DNA from: Candidatus Methylomirabilota bacterium
GTDB taxonomy: Bacteria; Methylomirabilota; Methylomirabilia; Rokubacteriales; CSP1-6
NCBI GenBank assembly: GCA_035709005.1
Contig: DASTFB010000078.1
Span: forward strand, 1 to 32,047
Reading direction: 5' to 3'
Length of the DNA: 32,047 nucleotides
Shown: positions 4,788 through 14,491 of the stretch, piece by piece
Position numbering within the stretch: position 1 is the stretch's first letter
Layout of the letters: every line of letters begins with the position of its first letter
Notes under the pieces: model-generated
Database searches by the model: none
What the model saw: the letters and a program-made list of their open reading frames with translations, nothing else
What the model was told of the DNA's origin: nothing
Translations under genes and position numbers: made by a program

Positions 4788-5344
4788 CACCGCGCGCCGG
4801 ACGCTGGCCAACTCGAGCCCTTGTGCCGGTCCCGATACGTCACCGACGTACCCTCCACCGACGCCCACGGTGTCAACGTGTGAAGCGCGGCGGTGGTCGC
4901 GCTCAGGATGTGCCGCACGGCAAGCCCGCGGGCGGTCAGGGCGTCGGCGATTAGACTGCGGTGACAGCGCCAGGGCACCGCTTCTGCGCACATGATGGCC
5001 GTGCGCTGCCGACGGGCCAGCTCGAGCAGCGCCGCCAGGCTCTCGGCGAAGGCAGGCGTCTGCATGTGGTCGGCGTACCCGCGGAATCCGGCGTTGCGCC
5101 AGCCGACATTGATCGAATCCGGACGAGGGCGGCGCAGACCTCCCAGCCCGGGCAGGTGCAGGTAGGCGACACCCGCATCCTGGAGACTCCGCGCGAGGCG
5201 CTCCTGGTTGAATTGAGGATTGTGCCGGGAGCGGGGGATGGTCCGTACGTCGGCGAGCTGAACGATCGCATGGCCCGACAGCAGCGCGAGCAACTCGCCG
5301 ATCGGGCGCGTGGAGTGCCCGACTGTCCAGATGCCGCCGGTCAC
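4787..5344 (-). CDS. DUF488 family protein
   Basis: A 185-residue DUF488 protein. Visible signatures are IWTVGHST near the N-terminus (5-12), ADVRTIPRSRHNPQFN (51-66), and a cysteine motif CAEAVPWRCHRSLIADAL (118-135). These are the conserved blocks of the family, which has no agreed biochemical role; the CX8CHR arrangement suggests metal or nucleic-acid handling, but this is speculation. The GTG start at 5344 overlaps the TGA of the hybrid kinase gene by four bases (GTGA), and its stop overlaps the start of the CPBP-like gene. All three are therefore one translationally coupled transcript, an unusual setting for a DUF488 gene. Confidence 0.8.
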   Translation of the reverse strand: MTGGIWTVGHSTRPIGELLALLSGHAIVQLADVRTIPRSRHNPQFNQERLARSLQDAGVAYLHLPGLGGLRRPRPDSINVGWRNAGFRGYADHMQTPAFAESLAALLELARRQRTAIMCAEAVPWRCHRSLIADALTARGLAVRHILSATTAALHTLTPWASVEGTSVTYRDRHKGSSWPASGAR

Positions 5345-8300
5345 CTCGCCGCCCGGGCGATCAAGCTCGTCAGCTGCTCGGGATCGACCGGCTTCACCAC
5401 GTGGTCGTCGAACCCGGCCTCCAGCGCCTGCTGGCGATCCTGGGGCCGGCCATAGCCAGTCAGGGCGATGAGGAGGACCGCCGGCCCCAGCGCTGCCCGA
5501 ACCCTGCGCGCCACCTCGTTGCCGTCGAGCACGGGCAGGCCGATATCCACCAGCATGACGTCGGGGCGTTCGCGCAAGGCGACGGTCACGGCGTCGACGC
5601 CGTTGTCCGCGACCAGGACTCGATGGCCGGCCAGCTCCAGGCAGGCCTGGAGCATCTGGGCGCTATCCACGTTGTCCTCGACCACGAGCACCGAGCACGC
5701 CGGACCTGGCGCCGCCGCCGGCGGGGCGTTCGAGCTGGCCGGATGCAACGAGGCCGCCGGTAGCCGGGCGATGAACTCGCTGCCCCGCCCTTTGCCCTCG
5801 CTCCGGGCCGAGACGTCGCCACCGTGGAGCTCCACCAGCCGGCGAACCAGCGTCAAGCCGATGCCGAGCCCCCCTTCGGAGCGCGCCAGTGAGGGATCGA
5901 CCTGGGCGAAGAGGTCGAAGATTCGGGGCAACATCTCGTCAGGGATGCCGACCCCGGTGTCGCTGACGGAGAGCACGACCCAGCCGGCCTCTTGACCTGC
6001 GGTGAGGACGATGCTTCCTCCCGGCGGGGTGTACTTGGCCGCGTTGTTCAGCAGGTTACCGATGATCTGCACGATCCGGGTCGGATCGGCCTCCACGCGG
6101 ATCGGCGTGTTGGGCAGGTCGACGCGGATCGTGTGACCCCGGCTCTCGATCAGGCTGCGGGTGGACTCCATCGCCTCGGCCACGGCGGAGCCGATCTCCA
6201 GGGGGACCTTGACCAGCTCGATCTTGCCCTGGGTGATCCGGGCCACGTCGAGGAGGTCGTCGAGCAGCCGGGTGAGGTGCAGGAGCTGGCGTTCGACGAT
6301 CTCGCGGGCGCGCTGAACGACCGGGTCATCGCCCAGCCGCTCGCCGATCACGTAGAAGCCACTGCGGATCGGAGCCAGCGGATTGCGGAGCTCGTGGGCG
6401 AGCATGGCCAGGAAATGGTCTTTGGCCCGGCTGGCGGCCTCGGCCTCGCTGCGGGCCTGGCGGTCGGCTTCATGAAGTTGCGCGTTCTCGATGGCCAGGG
6501 CCACGCGATCGGCCACGAGCTGCAAGAGGCGGGCGTCGTCCTCGCTGAAGCGCCGGGGCTGGGTCGAGCCGACCCGGATGATGCCGGTGGCCCAGCCGCC
6601 GACGAGGAGGGGGGCCCCGAGGAGCGAGCGGATCCCCCGCTCGCTCAGCACGGACGCGTGTAGCTCTACCTTCTTGGCGATGTCCTCGGCCACCATCGGC
6701 CCTCGGGCGAGCACGACCTGCCCGGAGAAGCCCCGGCCGATCGGGATGGGCGCCAGGTCGTCTCCGGCCTCCAGACCGCTGACCGCGCGCGGCACCAGCA
6801 CCTGCCGCTCCTGGTCGACGAGGAAGACGGCCGCCGTGTCGACGCCGAGGACGTCTCGAACCCTGGTGAGGAGCTCGCGGAGCAGATCTTCCACACCGAG
6901 CGCCGCCAGGGCGACGTCCGTGATGCCTTGCAGGCGCCGGAGCTCGGCTGTGGCGGCTTCCGCCTCCGACCGGGCCCGCTCGGCTTGCAAGGCCACCGCC
7001 TCGGCCTCCCGCTGCCGGTGCTGAGCCTCCTGGTAGAGCTGGGCGTTGCGCAACGCCACGGCCGCCTGCGCGGCGAACATCTGCGCGAGGCTCTCGTCAT
7101 CCGGGCTCAGTCGCAGGGGCTGCGCCGAGTGCAGGGCGAGGACGCCGAGCACGATCTGCCGCCATACGATGGGAAACCCGAAGACGCTGCGGAGCCCATG
7201 AGCCCGGTGCCACGCGGGGTGCGGAACGAGCTCGTTCTCGAAGACATCGGGGACGTGGATCGGCCGACGGTCGGCCGCGACCACGGCGATGAGGTTGCCG
7301 GTCAGGGGCAGCGCCTCGATCGGGTAGTCGCGGCGGTGGCGTTCGCTCGAACACGCCCGCAGCGTGGCGATGCCATTGTCGGCGTCGACGATCCAGAGGG
7401 TGACGACGGCGATCCCCATGATCTCGGCGGCCATGCGGCTGATGCCGTCCAGCACCTCGTCGATTTCCAGCGACGACGAGACCAGTCGGTTGACGTGCGC
7501 GAGAATGCGCAAGCGCTCCGCCCGGACCTCCTGGACGGCGTACAGCCGCGCGTTGTTGAAGGCGATCGCGGCCTGGTCGGCAAAGGCCTCGGCCAAGCGC
7601 ACCTCGTCGGCCGTGAACCGCCGCCCGGCCCGGTCGCCGAGGAAGAGCGCACCGATCGTCTCGTCCTGCACCATGAGCGGCACCGCGAGGCCAGCCCGCG
7701 GCGCCGTCCGGAGCGCCTCCCGGAGCGGCTCGCCGAGGACCATGCGGGGATCGTTGATGAGGTCCTCGGTGACCGCGGTCCGACGCTCCCGCAGGGCGAG
7801 CCCGACCGTCCCCATCCCGGCCGGAAGCGGCAGACGCTCCGGCAGGCCGCGATCGCCCGACACCGCCAGCGGCACGCAGGCACCGGTGTCGGGGTCCAGC
7901 CGGTAGACGATGACGCACAGCGCGCCGATGAGCTCCCGCAGACTGCCGACGACGCGCTGGGCCACCTCTTCCACATTCAGCGTCTGCGACAGCAGGCGGC
8001 CCGTCGCCGTCAAGGCCTCGGCGATCCGGCGCCGCTGCTCGCTCTCGGTGTAGAGCCGGGCATTGTCGACGGCCAGGGAGGCTCGCCGGGCCAGGTCTTC
8101 GGCCAGCGCGAGGTCTTCCGGCCCGTAGCGCCGGCCCGCCTGCCCCGACACGAGCGACAGCGCCCCGAGGGTTCGCCCCCGCGCCATCAGGGGCACGATG
8201 ATGAACGAGGTGTACGTCAGGGCGCGGGCGATCTGCCGGTGCTGAGGGTCCGGGGCAATGGCGGCGAGCATCGACTCGGTGATCTCCGGAGCCACCTGAG

Positions 8301-9072
8301 GGCGACCGGTCCGTAACACCGTGGTCACCGGATGCGGTCCCTTCGGGTCGGGTGGGAACCGTTCCTGGACGGTGGCGACGAGCGGCCACAGATCGGGCCT
8401 GGCGTGCGCCGCGGCAACGCGTCGGATCGTGCCATCGTCGGCGAGCATGTCGATCACGCACATGTCCGCCAGGGCCGGTACGGTGAGCCGCGCCAGGCGC
8501 TGCAAGGTCGCCTCATAGTCGAGGCTGCCTGCCAACAAGGTGGAGACTTCTCCCAGCAGGCCGACCTGTTCGGCAGCCTTGCGCTCGGCCGCGACGAGCC
8601 GGCTGTTGCGGATCGCAACCGCGGCGTGCTCGGCCAGCCTCCGCAACACCTCTTCGTCCCGTTCGCCGAACGGTCGCGGGGCCCGGTTCGCCACCTGAAT
8701 GAGCGCCTCGACCCGGTCGCGGATGCGAACGGGGACCGTTACGGCATCGGCCTTGCGGACGGCCCGGCCGGTGGCCAGGACCTCCTCCACCAGCCTTCGG
8801 ATGATGGTGCCCTCGCGCTCCTGGAAGCCCTGGAGCTCGGGGCCCACTCGATACCGGAAGGTGAAGCCGTCGGCGCCGGGCTCACGCAGCGCGATCCGGG
8901 CCACGTCGCTGCGGCAGAGGTCTCGGGCCGTTTCGGCCACTCGCTGCAGGACCGCGTCCGTGTCGAGCGAGGCGTTGATGGTTTCGGCCAGCTCACGGAG
9001 CAGGTCGGCCTCGCGGCTGGACAGCCGCTCGTACCCGTGACCACGGCTCATCTCCGGGACGGGCGACGACAT
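5341..9072 (-). CDS. hybrid histidine kinase with five GAF domains and a receiver
   Basis: A 1243-residue soluble sensor with no membrane segment. Five GAF-type modules follow one another at about 20-160, 170-340, 350-510, 520-680 and 715-865, each ending in the recurring helix pattern AxAIxNARLY. A coiled coil (about 683-715) separates GAF4 from GAF5. The HisKA domain has FLAMLAHELRNPLAPI with phospho-accepting His893. The ATPase domain has the N box LLNNAAKYTPPGG, G1 DTGVGIP (1038-1044) and G2 GGLGIGLTLV. The C-terminal receiver (1128-1240) has acidic Glu1132/Asp1133, phospho-acceptor Asp1176 and Lys1227. GAF domains usually bind small ligands, cyclic nucleotides or chromophores; no bilin-binding cysteine is obvious. 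It is first in a coupled operon with DUF488 and CPBP-like genes and divergent from an NtrB/NtrC pair. No DNA-binding output is fused. Confidence 0.9.
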   Translation of the reverse strand: MSSPVPEMSRGHGYERLSSREADLLRELAETINASLDTDAVLQRVAETARDLCRSDVARIALREPGADGFTFRYRVGPELQGFQEREGTIIRRLVEEVLATGRAVRKADAVTVPVRIRDRVEALIQVANRAPRPFGERDEEVLRRLAEHAAVAIRNSRLVAAERKAAEQVGLLGEVSTLLAGSLDYEATLQRLARLTVPALADMCVIDMLADDGTIRRVAAAHARPDLWPLVATVQERFPPDPKGPHPVTTVLRTGRPQVAPEITESMLAAIAPDPQHRQIARALTYTSFIIVPLMARGRTLGALSLVSGQAGRRYGPEDLALAEDLARRASLAVDNARLYTESEQRRRIAEALTATGRLLSQTLNVEEVAQRVVGSLRELIGALCVIVYRLDPDTGACVPLAVSGDRGLPERLPLPAGMGTVGLALRERRTAVTEDLINDPRMVLGEPLREALRTAPRAGLAVPLMVQDETIGALFLGDRAGRRFTADEVRLAEAFADQAAIAFNNARLYAVQEVRAERLRILAHVNRLVSSSLEIDEVLDGISRMAAEIMGIAVVTLWIVDADNGIATLRACSSERHRRDYPIEALPLTGNLIAVVAADRRPIHVPDVFENELVPHPAWHRAHGLRSVFGFPIVWRQIVLGVLALHSAQPLRLSPDDESLAQMFAAQAAVALRNAQLYQEAQHRQREAEAVALQAERARSEAEAATAELRRLQGITDVALAALGVEDLLRELLTRVRDVLGVDTAAVFLVDQERQVLVPRAVSGLEAGDDLAPIPIGRGFSGQVVLARGPMVAEDIAKKVELHASVLSERGIRSLLGAPLLVGGWATGIIRVGSTQPRRFSEDDARLLQLVADRVALAIENAQLHEADRQARSEAEAASRAKDHFLAMLAHELRNPLAPIRSGFYVIGERLGDDPVVQRAREIVERQLLHLTRLLDDLLDVARITQGKIELVKVPLEIGSAVAEAMESTRSLIESRGHTIRVDLPNTPIRVEADPTRIVQIIGNLLNNAAKYTPPGGSIVLTAGQEAGWVVLSVSDTGVGIPDEMLPRIFDLFAQVDPSLARSEGGLGIGLTLVRRLVELHGGDVSARSEGKGRGSEFIARLPAASLHPASSNAPPAAAPGPACSVLVVEDNVDSAQMLQACLELAGHRVLVADNGVDAVTVALRERPDVMLVDIGLPVLDGNEVARRVRAALGPAVLLIALTGYGRPQDRQQALEAGFDDHVVKPVDPEQLTSLIARAAR

Positions 9073-9104: not shown

Positions 9105-9140
9105 CAACCGGAAAATCTTTGCTCAGGCCGCCTCCGGTTG
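9105..9140. repeat. 7-bp inverted repeat between divergent kinase genes
   Basis: CAACCGG (9105-9111) and CCGGTTG (9134-9140) are perfect inverted copies, 22 bases apart, midway between the divergent starts at 9072 and 9185. The right copy overlaps a TTGACC -35-like hexamer. It could be a shared operator or chance in GC-rich DNA. Confidence 0.3.
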
Positions 9141-9166
9141 ACCGCGGGGCCGGCCCGAGCGACCAT
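9138..9166 (+). promoter_or_regulatory. possible sigma-70 promoter of the NtrB/NtrC pair
   Basis: TTGACC (9138-9143), five of six matches, is followed after 17 bases by GACCAT (9161-9166), a weak -10 box. The predicted transcript start is about 12 bases before the ATG at 9185. Confidence 0.3.
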
Positions 9167-9184
9167 CACGTCGAAGCGGCAGGC

Positions 9185-10672
9185 ATGGGCCGCTACTCAC
9201 GTATGGGCCTGAGGCTCCGGCTGATCCTCGTGCTGGTCCTGCCCCTGGTGCTGGTGGTGGGGGTCTACGGACTCATGAGGGTCCGCTCGGAGCGCAGCGA
9301 GCTCTTACGCGAGAACGAGCGCAATGTGGCCCTCACCGCCAAGGCCATCCAGGTCGCGGTCGAGGCCGCGCTGCGCGACCGCCAGATCTCGGACATCCGC
9401 CGCCTCCTCTTCGAGATCGTCGAGGGGCAGGAGCAGATCGACCGCATCCGGATCTTCGATCAGGACCTGCAGCCTCTCCTCGTCTCCAATCCGCTGTCGA
9501 TCGGCGAGGAGATCCCGATGGCCTCGTTGCGGCTGACCATCGAAGGCGGACAGCCCCACACCTACTACGAGAGGGGCGACGAGCAGCCCGTGCTCTATTA
9601 CTTCATACCGCTTCGCGGGCGCGGAGGGGAGATCACCGGCACGCTAGAGTTGGTCCACCTGGCCTCGGGAGTCGAGCAGCGGATCCGCGCCGCGGTATGG
9701 GACGTCTGGCTGCGCCTGGGTGCGGTCCTCGTGCTGGTCGCGGTGATCACCGGCGCCATGCTGCAGCGGCAGGTGCTGCGGCCGCTCGCCAGACTCGTGG
9801 AGCGAATTCGCCGGCTCGGCCAGGGCGAACCCGGTCAGCCGCTGCCCGTCGAGCGGCGTGACGAGCTCGGTCGGGTAGCCGAGGCTTTCAACACGATGGC
9901 CGCACAGCTGGCCGAGGCCCGCCGCAAGCACCTGGCCGAGAGCGAGCGCGCCCTGGACCTGGAGCGCCAGCTTCGACACGCCGAGATCCTGTCCGTGGCC
10001 GGCCGGCTGGCCAGCGGCCTGGCCCACGAGGTGGGCACGCCCCTGAATATCATTTCGGGCCGGGCCGAATTCGTGCTCAAGACGTTGCCAGCGGACGACG
10101 GTCGCCGCGAAGACCTCGAGGTCATGATCGGCCAGATCGACCGCATCTCCGGGATCATCCGCGCCCTCCTGGACATGGTGAGACCGGCCAAGCCGGAGAT
10201 CCAGGCCATCGGCCTGGCCACGGTCGTGGAGCGGCTCATGCCGCTGCTGCACCACACCGCCAGGCGCCATGGGGTCGTGCTGGCGGCCACGGTCGCCGAG
10301 GATTTGCCGCTGGTGCTGGCCGACCCGAACCAGGTGCAGCAGGTACTCATCAACGTCGTCATGAACGCGCTGGCGGCGACGGCTTCGCCGGGCCATGTCC
10401 GGATCCTCGCGCGGCCTCGGATGGCCGTGGGGCGTACGGGTGTCGAGCTCGACGTCACCGACACCGGATCCGGGATTCCCCCCGACATCCTGCCCCGGGT
10501 CTTCGAGCCGTTCTTCACCACCAAGGCGCCCGGCCAGGGCACCGGCCTGGGGCTGACGATCTGCCGGGACATCGTCCGAGAGCACGGCGGAGAGATCCAG
10601 GTGCGGAGCGCCGTGAACGAGGGAACGACGGTCACCGTCTGGCTGCCGGCGGCCGACGAGACCCGGAGATGA
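9185..10672 (+). CDS. membrane sensor histidine kinase, NtrB/AtoS-like
   Basis: A 495-residue sensor kinase. Transmembrane helix 1 is at about 10-31, an extracytoplasmic sensor domain spans about 33-172, and helix 2 lies at about 174-194. A HAMP linker (195-250) ends in FNTMAAQLAEARR. The HisKA domain has GRLASGLAHEVGTPLNII with phospho-accepting His281. The ATPase domain shows the N box VLINVVMNALAAT (387-399), DTGSGIPPDILPRVFEPFF (426-444) and GQGTGLGLTICRDIV. The HEVGTPL form is typical of kinases paired with sigma-54 activators. Its stop overlaps the start of the regulator by four bases (ATGA), so the two are cotranscribed and coupled. I chose the ATG at 9185; a TTG at 9119 and an ATG at 9203 are alternatives. 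The signal sensed is unknown. Confidence 0.9.
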   Translation: MGRYSRMGLRLRLILVLVLPLVLVVGVYGLMRVRSERSELLRENERNVALTAKAIQVAVEAALRDRQISDIRRLLFEIVEGQEQIDRIRIFDQDLQPLLVSNPLSIGEEIPMASLRLTIEGGQPHTYYERGDEQPVLYYFIPLRGRGGEITGTLELVHLASGVEQRIRAAVWDVWLRLGAVLVLVAVITGAMLQRQVLRPLARLVERIRRLGQGEPGQPLPVERRDELGRVAEAFNTMAAQLAEARRKHLAESERALDLERQLRHAEILSVAGRLASGLAHEVGTPLNIISGRAEFVLKTLPADDGRREDLEVMIGQIDRISGIIRALLDMVRPAKPEIQAIGLATVVERLMPLLHHTARRHGVVLAATVAEDLPLVLADPNQVQQVLINVVMNALAATASPGHVRILARPRMAVGRTGVELDVTDTGSGIPPDILPRVFEPFFTTKAPGQGTGLGLTICRDIVREHGGEIQVRSAVNEGTTVTVWLPAADETRR

Positions 10673-11997
10673 CCCCCAAGGTCCTGGTCGTCGACAACGA
10701 CAAGGAAATGGTGACGATGCTCCGGCGTCATCTGGAGAGCGAGCGGCTGTCGGTCACCGCCGTCACGAGCGGGCAGGCCGCGCTCGCCGCGCTGGAGCAG
10801 GAGGAGTTCGAGGTGGTCCTCACCGACCTCAGAATGGACGAGGTCGATGGCCTGGCCGTGCTCCGGCGAGCTCAGGCGGGACAGCCGGCGTCCCGCGTCA
10901 TCCTCATGACCGCCTTCGGCAGCCTCGAGAATGCGATCGAGGCGATGCGCCAGGGCGCGTACGACTACCTGACCAAGCCGTTCAAGCTGGCCGAAGTCAG
11001 CCTGGCGGTGCGCCGAGCCCTGGACGAGCGTCAGCTTCGGGAGGAGAACCGCCGGCTCCGCGCCGAGGTTGCTCAGCGCTACGGCTTCGACAACCTGCTC
11101 GGCCGCTCCCCGGCGATGCAGGCCGTGTTCGAGCAAATCCGGGCCGTGGCCCCGAGCGACGCGGCGGTCCTCTTGCTGGGAGACAGTGGAACCGGCAAGG
11201 AGCTGGTGGGGCGGGCCATTCACTGGAACAGCGGTCGCCGCGACGGTCCCTTCGTGCCGGTGAACTGTGCAGCCATCCCCGAGACGCTGTTGGAATCCGA
11301 GCTGTTCGGACACGAGAAGGGAGCCTTCACCGGAGCCGCCCGCAAACGGCGAGGGCTCTTCGTCGAGGCCGACGGCGGCACCCTGCTCCTCGACGAGATC
11401 GCCGACATGTCGCTGGCCCTGCAGGCCAAGCTGCTGCGCGCGCTCCAGGACAAGGCGATCCGGCCGGTCGGAGGCAGCGAAGAGATCCGGCTGGACGTCA
11501 GGATCATCAGCGCTACCAACCGGGACTTGCCGGCCCTCGTCCGGGACGGGACGTTCCGAGAGGACCTCTACTACCGTCTGGCCGTCATTCCGATCCGGCT
11601 TCCCGCCCTCCGTGAGCGCCGCGAGGACATTCCTCTGCTGGCCCGGCATTTCCTGGAGCGGGCGGCGGTCCCGCTCGGCAAGCGCCTGGACGGGTTCAGC
11701 GACGAGGCGATGGCGTGGCTGCTCGCGCATCGATGGCCCGGCAACGTCCGGGAGCTCGAGAACGTGGTGGAGCGGGCGGCCATCCTGGCCCGCGGGCCAC
11801 TGGTGACCCTGGCCGACCTGGGCACCGAGTTCACGATGCCAGGCGGGCTGGAGGCATCCCTGCGCCCCACGCTCGCCGAGTTGGAGCACCAGTACATGAT
11901 GCGGGTGCTGACCGAGACAGCGGGGGATAAGGCTGCCGCGGCGAAAATTCTCGGCGTCAGCGTTCGTACGCTGCAACGTAAGTTCAAGGAGAGCTGA
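10669..11997 (+). CDS. sigma-54-dependent response regulator, NtrC family
   Basis: A 442-residue activator with three modules. The receiver (1-120) has acidic Asp9/Asp11, phospho-acceptor Asp53 (VVLTDLRMD) and Lys103. The AAA+ sigma-54 interaction domain (142-375) has Walker A GDSGTGKE (171-178), the sigma-54-contacting loop GAFTGA (218-223), Walker B LLLDEI (239-244) and WPGNVRELENVV. The Fis-type helix-turn-helix is at the C-terminus (about 403-442, AAAAKILGVSVRTLQRKF). Such proteins bind palindromic upstream sites and use ATP to open sigma-54 promoters. A perfect palindrome starts five bases after this stop codon and a sigma-54 promoter follows, so its own target may be right beside it. 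It is coupled to the kinase gene by a four-base overlap. Confidence 0.94.
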   Translation: MTPKVLVVDNDKEMVTMLRRHLESERLSVTAVTSGQAALAALEQEEFEVVLTDLRMDEVDGLAVLRRAQAGQPASRVILMTAFGSLENAIEAMRQGAYDYLTKPFKLAEVSLAVRRALDERQLREENRRLRAEVAQRYGFDNLLGRSPAMQAVFEQIRAVAPSDAAVLLLGDSGTGKELVGRAIHWNSGRRDGPFVPVNCAAIPETLLESELFGHEKGAFTGAARKRRGLFVEADGGTLLLDEIADMSLALQAKLLRALQDKAIRPVGGSEEIRLDVRIISATNRDLPALVRDGTFREDLYYRLAVIPIRLPALRERREDIPLLARHFLERAAVPLGKRLDGFSDEAMAWLLAHRWPGNVRELENVVERAAILARGPLVTLADLGTEFTMPGGLEASLRPTLAELEHQYMMRVLTETAGDKAAAAKILGVSVRTLQRKFKES

Positions 11998-12001
11998 GAG
12001 C

Positions 12002-12033
12002 CGACACGATGTCGCCATGGCGACATCGTGTCG
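12002..12033. promoter_or_regulatory. perfect 32-bp palindrome, candidate upstream activating sequence
   Basis: All 32 bases form a perfect palindrome centred on CCATGG, with the inner core TGTCGCCATGGCGACA and outer arms CGACACGA / TCGTGTCG. It begins five bases after the stop of the NtrC-type regulator. No T-run follows, so a simple intrinsic terminator is unlikely. Its centre is 92 bases upstream of the GG of the sigma-54 promoter at 12108, a usual distance for a binding site of an NtrC-type activator. Binding by the adjacent regulator is inference. Confidence 0.6.
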
Positions 12034-12107
12034 CCGCGGAACCTCCCAACCCTGAGGGTCTGCACGATAACTATCCGTTATCACTGATCTCATGAGGGCC
12101 CGGCGTC

Positions 12108-12123
12108 TGGCACCTGACTTGCT
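12108..12123 (+). promoter_or_regulatory. consensus sigma-54 (-24/-12) promoter
   Basis: TGGCAC (12108-12113), five spacer bases and TTGCT (12119-12123) give the exact GG-to-GC spacing of sigma-54 promoters and match the consensus TGGCAC-N5-TTGCW. The transcript would start near 12134. No credible protein-coding frame follows in this direction before the convergent ATP-grasp gene. Confidence 0.65.
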
Positions 12124-12133
12124 CTGGGATAGG

Positions 12134-12210
12134 AGCACTTCACGCCGCCGTCGTGCTTGCCCTCATCACCTCCTGGGCCACACCGGGGCGCGGCGGCGGC
12201 GTGAATGTCC
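12134..12210 (+). ncRNA. candidate sigma-54-driven small or antisense RNA
   Basis: This is the predicted product of the sigma-54 promoter at 12108. It would open almost at once with TTCACGCCGCCG (12139-12150), which is perfectly complementary to CGGCGGCGTGAA (12194-12205), forming a 12-bp stem around a 43-base loop. The loop holds ATCACCTCCT (12165-12174), the same sequence as the anti-Shine-Dalgarno end of 16S rRNA. The 3' end is undefined: there is no T-run, and longer transcription would run antisense into the ATP-grasp gene. On the opposite strand the same bases read as a ribosome-binding site before an eight-codon frame, so decay of a minus-strand gene is a rival explanation. Prediction only. 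Confidence 0.3.
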
Positions 12211-13233
12211 TCAAGAGGCTTCCGGCCTCGAGGCCGTACGCAGGCCGTACCGGGTCAGCGCCAGGTCCACGATTTCCAGAATGGTTTGCGGGTAGGTTCG
12301 CCCCGAGGCTCGCGCACCCTTCATGAACTCCCCCCGGGAATACAGGTGCGCATTGGGGTTCGCTTCGATGAGATAGGCCTTGTAGCCGGCCGCCAGACGG
12401 AAGTCGAAGCGGGCATAGTCACGCAGGTGCAGCGCGTGAAACGCGGTGAGGGCCGCCTGCTGCAGGCTCTCGACCACGCCGTCCGGTAGATCGTCGGCGA
12501 CCCGGTACCTGCTGCCGCGGTACGCTCGCGTCCCTTGCTGCCACTTCACCTCGGTACCGGCGATGCGCGGCGTGCCCTTGGGCAGGTGCGACAGGTCCAG
12601 CTCGACTGGCGGGAAGGCTTGGGGCTGGGAGTTGCCGAGGACACCCACGTAGAGCTCGCGCCCTTCGATGTATTCCTCCACCAGCACGGGCTGATTGAAC
12701 TCGGCGTGTAGATCGTCGATGCGCTCCATGAGGTTTTTGATGTTGTCGACCAGCGCGCTGAAGCCGATGCCGATGGATCCGTCCTCTCGGACCGGCTTGA
12801 CGATCACCGGGAAGTCGAGGTCATGGGCCCAGCCCACCCGGCCCCGGAAGACCGTGGCGAACTTGGGAGTGGTGATGCCGTGGAAGTTGAGGACCTTCTT
12901 GGTCAGGGCCTTGTCCATCCCCAGGTGGAGCCCGCGCGGGCCCGACCCCGTGTAGCGCAGGCCTAGCAGCTCGTAGTACGACGCCACGTGGGGCTCCTTG
13001 GTGTCGTCCTCGCCGTAGCTCTCCACGAGATTGAACAGCAGATCGGCCCGGACCGTGGCCAGGCGAGTGAGACACCGACGACTGCCGTCCACCGCGACGA
13101 AGAAGACCTCGTGGCGGGCCCGCCGCAGCACCTCGGCAATTTCCATGACGTCGGTCTTCTGCGGTGCCCGGCGCCGTTCCGGCGTGGGGGGCTCCGCGGC
13201 GCCGCGGGCAATGCCGATCCGCAGCCTAGCCAC
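12211..13233 (-). CDS. D-Ala-D-Ala ligase-like ATP-grasp enzyme
   Basis: A 340-residue ATP-grasp protein of the D-alanine-D-alanine ligase type, which joins a carboxylate to an amine with ATP. Visible blocks are LRYTGSGPRGLHLGMDKALTK start region (92-112), PVIVKPVREDGSIGIG (142-157) for the nucleotide-binding loop, VLVEEYIEGREL (183-194), and the metal-binding set RFDFRL (Asp277) and LIEANPN (Glu290, Asn292). All catalytic elements look intact. The N-terminal part is shorter and more divergent than in true Ddl, and no mur genes flank it, so the substrate is probably not D-alanine. The GTG start at 13233 overlaps the stop of the upstream metallopeptidase by eight bases; a longer frame to 13305 lies wholly inside that gene. 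The two are clearly coupled. Confidence 0.82.
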   Translation of the reverse strand: MARLRIGIARGAAEPPTPERRRAPQKTDVMEIAEVLRRARHEVFFVAVDGSRRCLTRLATVRADLLFNLVESYGEDDTKEPHVASYYELLGLRYTGSGPRGLHLGMDKALTKKVLNFHGITTPKFATVFRGRVGWAHDLDFPVIVKPVREDGSIGIGFSALVDNIKNLMERIDDLHAEFNQPVLVEEYIEGRELYVGVLGNSQPQAFPPVELDLSHLPKGTPRIAGTEVKWQQGTRAYRGSRYRVADDLPDGVVESLQQAALTAFHALHLRDYARFDFRLAAGYKAYLIEANPNAHLYSRGEFMKGARASGRTYPQTILEIVDLALTRYGLRTASRPEAS

Positions 13234-14293
13234 CCGCCGGGACTCCGGGCCGGACCCCCCGGGAGCGCAGGGACCGCGGCCGGGCGCGCGGGGTGAATCC
13301 GCCACGCGTCAGATAGTTCATGGTGAGGGTGGTCGCATACGTGGTGAGCTCCACCAACGTCGTCGCCTCGTGGCGCGTGTCGACGGACAGCTGCAGGCGC
13401 TCGGCCGTCTCGGCGATACTGTCGACCAGAGCCCGGATCACGGAGCGTCGGACCCCGGTCCAGTACTCGATCTTGTTGACGAGATCGGCATGGCGCTCGC
13501 GCACGAACTCGGCCGCCGGGCGCAGGCCCCGACGGCGGCCCCCTTTGCGCACGAAGAAGTCGGGAAGGTCATTCTCGAGCGCGACGTCCACCAGCGGCCG
13601 TTCCGCCTGGGTCGCGCGGAAGAAATCCTCCACCGTCATGTCCATCTCCTCCACGGTGATGTCCGTGGAGGCCAGGCGAACGGGCGGCTCGGTATCGGCG
13701 AGGGCCCGCGCGACCCGGTCCACGTATCGGAGCTTGCGCATGGCCGGCCAGCCCCGGTAGCGCTCGCGCCAGCGCGACCGCGGCGTCAGCCAAACGGCAA
13801 ACGTCTCGGCGAAGTCCTCGTCGGGATGTTTCTGGGCGTACCAGCCCTCCAGATGGCGCACGAAGTTGCGGTGAAAGGGCACCGGGCGGTACCGCTCGCG
13901 ATAGGGCCGCGTGAACGGGCCGAACAGCTCACGCCACTGTGGAGTCTCGTAGAGCCGATAGGCGTAGTTGAAGGCGTGGCCCGCCTCGTGCCGGAGGTAC
14001 ATCAGGATCTCGCGCTCGTCCTCCAGATCGTCGATCTCCTTCTCCAGCCGGGCCAGCTTGGGATCGGCCAGATAGAACGGGATGCCGATGATCGGCTCGC
14101 CGTCAGGACAGCCCCACTCGTCGGTGAGGTAGGCGTGCGGGCGAAAGCGGCGAAGCCCTTTGCGCTCGAGCTCGGCGTGAAGCATCTTGACGTAGCGCTC
14201 CACCGGCGAGCCTTCGAGCTTGAGCCCCAGCTGGTTGATCCGCTGGGGAAGCAGCGCGCGGGCGTCGGGTGGGGCCGCTTCAAACGTACGCAT
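13226..14293 (-). CDS. putative zinc-binding metallopeptidase (HEAGH)
   Basis: A 355-residue protein with the zincin motif in YLRHEAGHAFNYAYRLYE: His102, Glu103 and His106 would bind and activate water at zinc. The downstream acidic residue in HPDEDFAETFAVW (Glu163) is a likely third ligand, as in gluzincin-type enzymes. No signal peptide or membrane helix is visible, so it is probably cytoplasmic. It resembles the family annotated as putative zinc-binding metallopeptidase (I believe Pfam PF15887); its substrates are not known. The ATG at 14293 (MRTFEAAPPD) fits the family start, with an ATG at 14311 as the alternative; neither has a clear ribosome-binding site. Its stop lies inside the ATP-grasp gene start, suggesting a ligase-peptidase module. 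Confidence 0.75.
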   Translation of the reverse strand: MRTFEAAPPDARALLPQRINQLGLKLEGSPVERYVKMLHAELERKGLRRFRPHAYLTDEWGCPDGEPIIGIPFYLADPKLARLEKEIDDLEDEREILMYLRHEAGHAFNYAYRLYETPQWRELFGPFTRPYRERYRPVPFHRNFVRHLEGWYAQKHPDEDFAETFAVWLTPRSRWRERYRGWPAMRKLRYVDRVARALADTEPPVRLASTDITVEEMDMTVEDFFRATQAERPLVDVALENDLPDFFVRKGGRRRGLRPAAEFVRERHADLVNKIEYWTGVRRSVIRALVDSIAETAERLQLSVDTRHEATTLVELTTYATTLTMNYLTRGGFTPRARPRSLRSRGVRPGVPAGG

Positions 14294-14491
14294 GGGGCCA
14301 CTTGCACCCATGCTAAACCGGGACGTCGTCCCTCAGGAAGCGCGGCGGCGCGGGGGCCCTCCCCCGCGCTGCCTGCCGGGGTCAGCGGTGCCAGCGATGC
14401 GGCAGGCGCGCGGCGCCCGGCAACGGCGCTCCAGCGGCCCGCCGTCGATGATGCGCCCGAGCGTCGCCACGAACGGGACCTCGCCCTCTAT

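Follow-up and report, generated by a model that had tools for sequence, protein, structure and literature searches.

The locus and its kinase-activator operon

The window analysed here (32,047 nucleotides) is the entire contig C78 of a 4.59-Mb assembly, 95% complete, from an uncultured soil or groundwater bacterium whose relatives are Candidatus Rokubacteria/Rokuibacteriota. Its features of interest are listed in Table 1. The sensor kinase and activator genes form one operon, the activator open reading frame (ORF) overlapping the kinase stop by 4 bp, and the kinase more likely starts at ATG 9185 or 9203 than at TTG 9119. The activator carries a receiver (PF00072), a sigma-54 AAA+ domain (PF00158) and a Fis-type HTH (PF02954), and its translation contains the GAFTGA motif, as expected for a sigma-54 enhancer-binding response regulator; the host genome encodes many paralogous sigma-54 activators. 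A preliminary description, made from the letters of the window alone, had named the two genes an NtrB/NtrC pair. This family name fails because both proteins score under the NCBIfam cut-offs: the activator reaches 452.7 against an equivalog cut-off of 558.6 for NtrC, 479.8 against 714 for AtoC and 404.7 against 763 for GlrR, and the kinase reaches 103 against 240 for NtrB. The activator is NtrC-like in domain make-up, yet its best NCBIfam matches give it no equivalog assignment.

On the upstream side, a hybrid kinase of 1243 aa (5341-9072), containing five GAF domains and one receiver, is divergent from the operon, across a gap of 46 bp. On the downstream side, the true start of the convergent ATP-grasp gene is probably inside the called ORF, since the latter shares 80 bp (13226-13305) with the next gene, a Peptidase_Mx-like ORF at 13226-14311.

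Table 1. Features at the locus, with positions in the window
Feature	Position	Strand	Basis or remark
Sensor histidine kinase, HAMP-HisKA-HATPase_c	9119..10672	+	Pfam; 5' region and translation
Sigma-54 enhancer-binding response regulator	10669..11997	+	Pfam, NCBIfam, orthologs 61-80% identical
Operator dyad 1, CGACACGATGTCG	12002..12014	.	Same dyad kept in 47 sites of relatives
Operator dyad 2, CGACATCGTGTCG	12021..12033	.	Centre 19 bp from dyad 1 centre
Small AT-rich inverted repeat, GATAAC-N5-GTTATC	12066..12082	.	Spacer between operator and promoter
Predicted sigma-54 promoter (-24/-12), TGGCACCTGACTTGCT	12108..12123	+	Motif score
Predicted short hairpin RNA	12134..12208	+	Start ~12134, stem 12135-12208; fold prediction
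Terminal loop UCAUCACCUCCU, 12 nt, with AUCACCUCCU	12163..12174	+	Mean P(unpaired) 0.94 over the 10-mer
ATP-grasp (D-Ala-D-Ala ligase-like) gene, convergent	12211..13305	-	Pfam PF07478; stop 12211-12213

A double dyad and a sigma-54 promoter behind the activator gene

The palindrome CGACACGATGTCGCCATGGCGACATCGTGTCG (12002-12033) begins 4 bp past the activator stop (TGA, 11995-11997). As the preliminary description had reported, it is perfect over 32 bp, loop-free and complementary at 16 of 16 positions. That description missed three points: the palindrome resolves into two 13-bp dyads of the form CGACA-N3-TGTCG with 6 bp between them, relatives have the same site, and a 16S-tail loop caps the stem downstream of the promoter. 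The same order (CGACA-N3-TGTCG, 6 bp, CGACA-N3-TGTCG) is found behind several activator orthologs, and in an alignment of 48 sites all four half-sites are kept and the spacers are free. The window operator has no mismatch and is the one site among these 48 that is also fully symmetric at the free positions. Symmetry at the six free pairs has a chance of about 0.002 per site, which makes a second constraint conceivable; an RNA hairpin, or palindrome correction during replication, could possibly impose it, although neither is required.

The predicted promoter TGGCACCTGACTTGCT has the -24 GG/-12 GC spacing of sigma-54 promoters and is the top sigma-54 match in the window. With a score of 16.6, against 19.8 for the full consensus, it is near-consensus. 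Genome-wide background statistics were taken from a 400-kb sample of the host genome (800 kb of single strand); matches as good as this one occur once per 800 kb of single-strand sequence, so that about 6e-5 would be expected across the 49 positions open to the promoter. The palindrome centre (12017.5) is about 92 bp from the -24 GG (12109-12110), in agreement with the 92 bp given previously, and 103 bp from the -12 GC. The predicted start agrees with the one already proposed near 12134. In the spacer, the repeat GATAAC-N5-GTTATC, for which 400 kb of the host genome held no match, might bend the DNA or bind a second factor. The idea that operator-promoter spacers generally contain an AT-rich, IHF-type stretch was rejected because the enrichment is only slight, a 20-mer with at least 55% AT being present in 33% of the spacers and in 15% of the background.

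The operator-promoter unit in related genomes

Sixty related genomes were searched for the operator, using three of the four half-sites as the pattern and the reversed pattern as a control. Sites were present in 12 of the 12 genomes with an ortholog at least 64% identical to the activator, usually in several copies; the remaining 48 genomes gave zero or a single stray match, and the reversed pattern was near zero. Repeated occurrence of the double site is limited to Rokubacteria genomes with an orthologous activator. When no more than two mismatches are allowed, there are 47 sites, of which 41 lie 80-130 bp from a sigma-54 promoter and three more have a weaker promoter; for positions drawn at random from these loci the figure is 2.2%. 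The operator-promoter distances are helically phased with a period of 11.1 bp (0 of 5000 runs were equally strong), a pattern to be expected if regulator and polymerase need matching helix faces. The window pair, measured from the centre to the -12 GC, is ordinary within this set, and its promoter is among the top scorers.

An activator site at enhancer distance is therefore tied to the activator across genomes, and we consider the regulator-operator-promoter unit very well supported by these comparisons. It is hardly credible that the palindrome is just terminator-like, the sigma-54 match fortuitous and the two functionally unlinked: as RNA, the palindrome could form a hairpin past the activator stop, in the position of a terminator, but at least 12 genomes sharing the regulator have the double dyad at like spacing to sigma-54 promoters.

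Elsewhere, the regulon comprises genes for stand-alone receiver proteins, a trehalose-phosphatase, TreZ, MscS-type channels, OmpA lipoproteins, an SPFH protein, a lipoprotein family, a solute-binding protein and several 34-57-aa membrane proteins. Judged by the kinds of genes behind these operators, the relatives' regulon suggests a response to envelope or osmotic stress. The operator loci (L063:1008-13324, L064, L065, L069, L070, L073-L075, L081 and L095) include several sites that cluster around the activator gene. The site right behind the activator gene is followed by a lipoprotein gene in genome G031, a receiver protein gene in G018, genes for a 34-aa membrane protein and OmpA in G030 and a nucleotidyltransferase gene in G009.

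A sole detectable target with no credible gene

The window copy is the sole operator found in the host assembly, which is 95% complete; no other was detected at up to three mismatches. None of 12 looser host loci (two or three mismatches, or one half-site plus a promoter) has a promoter at enhancer distance, and the host homologs of three of the relatives' targets (the lipoprotein, a 100-aa protein and TreZ) have no adjoining operator or promoter. Two hits of the half-site/promoter pattern, at C39 and C87, were at chance level. As no second operator or target-linked promoter was found, the kinase-activator pair appears to be retained though its sole detectable target is the window promoter; degenerate sites, or the missing 5% of the genome, might hold others.

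No credible plus-strand gene follows this promoter, in agreement with the preliminary description. The ORF at 12205-12489 (+) is antisense to the Pfam-supported ATP-grasp gene, and no ORF near the start site combines a ribosome-binding site with a start codon. The search for a membrane-like small ORF behind the promoter found none, and all three frames of 12124-12333, searched for remnants of the relatives' targets, gave only antisense-of-ATP-grasp matches. It is quite improbable that the promoter drives an unannotated small protein comparable to the relatives' 34-57-aa membrane proteins. Such proteins stand behind the operator in at least five loci of relatives, AGGAG at 12131-12135 resembles a ribosome-binding site and one open frame has a hydrophobic stretch; however, no ATG, GTG or TTG is properly spaced from AGGAG, GTG 12153 is 17 nt off and in the stem and opens 57 codons without membrane-like character (17-residue maximum 0.78), and no homolog of the open frame was seen in relatives. 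Comparison between genomes, then, shows the operator, the promoter and their coupling, and that no credible gene follows them.

A predicted hairpin with an anti-Shine-Dalgarno loop

Folding predicts that a transcript from this promoter would form a single long 73-nt hairpin with an exposed loop, opening 1-5 nt from the predicted start. The folding energy is -60.5 kcal/mol for 12134-12245 (z -3.8) and -46.9 kcal/mol for a 77-nt fold, and the window leader has the strongest structure among 42 regulon leaders (z -5.2). The loop sequence AUCACCUCCU corresponds to the anti-Shine-Dalgarno (anti-SD) tail of 16S rRNA as known from bacteria in general. The predicted placement of an anti-SD motif in the unpaired loop of a stable hairpin is that of 'cuckoo'-type RNAs. 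This 10-mer has one other copy in the 800 kb of single-strand host background, and of 79 occurrences of ACCTCCT in 400 kb no other is in a comparable stem. Read on the minus strand, the loop gives AGGAGGTGATG, perhaps the remains of a dead translation start. Inside the window, the loop matches two or three ordinary strong SDs and nothing specific. An NfeR1-like feedback on the kinase was dropped because the kinase and activator starts match the loop poorly.

Between 11900 and 12400, nothing exceeded the Rfam gathering scores, the best chance match (E 0.07) lying far under its own, and no membership in the CrcZ, NrsZ or GlmY/GlmZ RNA families was detected. An intrinsic terminator (GC hairpin plus T run) was absent from both strands of the same interval, a count that leaves room for hairpin terminators lacking a T run. 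The preliminary description had proposed either a small RNA (sRNA) or an RNA antisense to the ATP-grasp gene as the product. The first is plausible given the hairpin at the start, the anti-SD loop and the second case described below, and the second would arise only through read-through of the hairpin. In the latter event, the transcript would cross into the ATP-grasp gene and lower its expression when the regulator is active. We find this form of control improbable: the promoter does face the 3' end of that gene with no U-tract terminator between, and the promoter of the second case faces an amidase gene likewise, but the convergent gene is not the same in the two genomes, the other regulon promoters drive sense genes, and a very strong hairpin stands right at the start.

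A second promoter without a gene

In genome G001, whose activator is 67% identical, the activator stop is likewise followed by the double operator, a sigma-54 promoter (CGGCACGGCGGTTGCG), a hairpin and a convergent gene that, from reading its translation, is presumably amidase-like. The preliminary description had looked to conservation in relatives. The operator and the promoter do recur there, the activators compared being 61-80% identical, but the G001 hairpin, which begins a few bases past the predicted start, has a stem unrelated in sequence to that of the window. Its unpaired stretch is AAAACCUCCUCCU, with a mean P(unpaired) of 0.72 for ACCUCCU. Among the 42 regulon leaders, ACCTCCT is present in two, exactly those without a gene; the chance of this is 1 in 861, for a motif spotted post hoc. 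These orphan cases number two and share no stem sequence, and neither hairpin has homologs.

A dedicated small RNA or an orphaned promoter

We give about an even chance to the reading that a regulator-dedicated sigma-54 sRNA with an anti-SD hairpin loop is encoded behind the activator gene, and we hold an sRNA product to be likelier than any single rival. The kinase would phosphorylate the activator, which would bind the double dyad behind its own gene and loop to sigma-54 RNA polymerase at the promoter. Transcription from about 12134 would yield a non-coding RNA of about 75 nt, essentially a single long hairpin whose loop would present the anti-SD. Such an RNA would most likely pair with the Shine-Dalgarno regions of target mRNAs and lower their translation. 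We infer the synthesis of the RNA, its anti-SD pairing action and, because no U-tract terminator follows the hairpin, its 3' end. The activator's sole direct output in the host would seem to be this RNA, the same operator driving stress and envelope genes in relatives. As for the module of regulator, binding site, promoter and RNA put forward in the preliminary description, the linkage of regulator, site and promoter is strongly supported by the relatives, and the RNA product is plausible, with some specific support.

The main rival, doubtful in our estimate though the strongest of those considered, holds that operator and promoter are real and that the gene they once drove disappeared or was relocated as the ATP-grasp gene came alongside, the hairpin being a bidirectional terminator of convergent genes and transcription from the promoter purposeless or colliding. 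The gene behind the post-activator site indeed differs in each of the four relatives named above (G031, G018, G030 and G009), and the G001 orphan also lies between convergent genes. The window hairpin could be a terminator, because hairpins that long are found in 3 of 23 convergent gaps of the host genome (13%) as against 0 of 28 divergent ones. However, the usual hairpins of host convergent gaps differ in sequence (GGAGGGGGC/AACCTCCCCC), and the hairpin is absent from the ATP-grasp orthologs, which are at other loci with no 3' hairpin of the window type and no conserved terminator behind them. Neither the hairpin at the start site nor the unpaired ACCUCCU, both common to the two orphans, is expected of a terminator. 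The unit also looks undecayed, because the operator is mismatch-free and fully symmetric and few promoters of the set score as well; both genes of the operon are intact despite no other operator being found in the genome, and the interval between the promoter and the ATP-grasp stop holds no remnant of the relatives' target genes.

Returning to the dedicated sRNA, a wider version of it is rather unlikely: the host regulon would have shrunk to one non-coding output, a 16S-tail mimic tuning SD-led mRNAs under envelope or osmotic stress, with a like RNA of unrelated stem behind the activator ortholog of another genus.

Relation to known systems

The layout of the locus has parallels in Pseudomonadaceae. 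In P. aeruginosa, the sRNA NrsZ (ntrB-ntrC-nrsZ) lies directly behind an NtrC-family regulator, needs sigma-54 and that regulator, and has a 5' stem-loop as its working part (PMC9308961, PMC8395346). The window unit, whose RNA is predicted, resembles it in its position next to the regulator and its sigma-54 promoter, but NrsZ is at least 226 nt long, is processed, carries the motif ACAGGCAG and depends on a true NtrC, whereas the window holds neither the motif nor the sequence. In Pseudomonadaceae, cbrA-cbrB-crcZ consists of a kinase, a sigma-54 activator and then a separate sigma-54-driven RNA unit (PMC8871633). The same order of kinase, sigma-54 activator and sigma-54 promoter is present here, again with a predicted RNA. 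However, CrcZ sequesters Hfq/Crc and CbrB binds non-palindromic subsites (PMC6296734), whereas the window has a strict double-dyad operator and a predicted single GC-rich hairpin with no Rfam match.

The comparison first proposed was GlmY/GlmZ under GlrR, a sigma-54 sRNA system controlled by a response regulator with the enhancer TGTC-N10-GACA (PMC4987338). It is not the nearest in layout, because NrsZ and CrcZ directly follow their own NtrC-family regulators. The window shares the half-sites TGTC/GACA, but their spacing differs (TGTC-N8-GACA in an array of four half-sites), the activator scores under the GlrR cut-off and the RNA is unrelated. As regards the loop, the alpha-r14/NfeR1 ('cuckoo') sRNAs of alphaproteobacteria carry an unpaired anti-SD in hairpins of differing stems and have a feedback link to the NtrC family (PMC10746234). 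The window and G001 are similar in that the anti-SD is kept and the stems are free. Homology to the alpha-r14 family is not seen, as that family has three hairpins with CCUCCUCCC and an NtrC-repressed sigma-70 promoter, whereas the window has one hairpin with AUCACCUCCU, a sigma-54 promoter and no Rfam match. By sequence the window unit stands outside all these families and, if the RNA is made, would work like them. It would then be a regulator-adjacent sigma-54 sRNA outside Proteobacteria, and possibly a regulon reduced to a single RNA with an anti-SD loop.

Enhancer-binding regulators of uncultured phyla are almost never tied to their targets. For the regulator studied here, sequence alone reveals the recognition code throughout Rokubacteria: two CGACA-N3-TGTCG dyads, separated by 6 bp, at 80-130 bp from a sigma-54 promoter. 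The regulon predicted from this code consists of trehalose enzymes, mechanosensitive channels, OmpA lipoproteins, receiver proteins and tiny membrane proteins.

Three minor observations were made along the way. A gene-end hairpin of the type GGAGGGGGC...GCCCCCTCC, which lacks a T run and has a ACCTCCCCC tract close by, is recurrent (L223:3462-3667, L222:6403-6517 and L216:9859-9943, also L005 and L108); it is probably either the clade's standard terminator or one of its repeat families. The cargo behind the operator nearest to the activator varies by genus (L083/G014 and L088/G016 versus L063/G031), as if operator and promoter together were a fixed socket. Finally, very small membrane proteins (about 34-57 aa; e.g. 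MKIPEKFEGVAVALALGIGAFAILGMIKLVASFT), which gene callers would miss, come first behind the operator-driven promoter in several genomes, at sites in L070 (3152), L069 (4977), L081 (4047), L063 (7745), L065 (9232) and L079 (3034).
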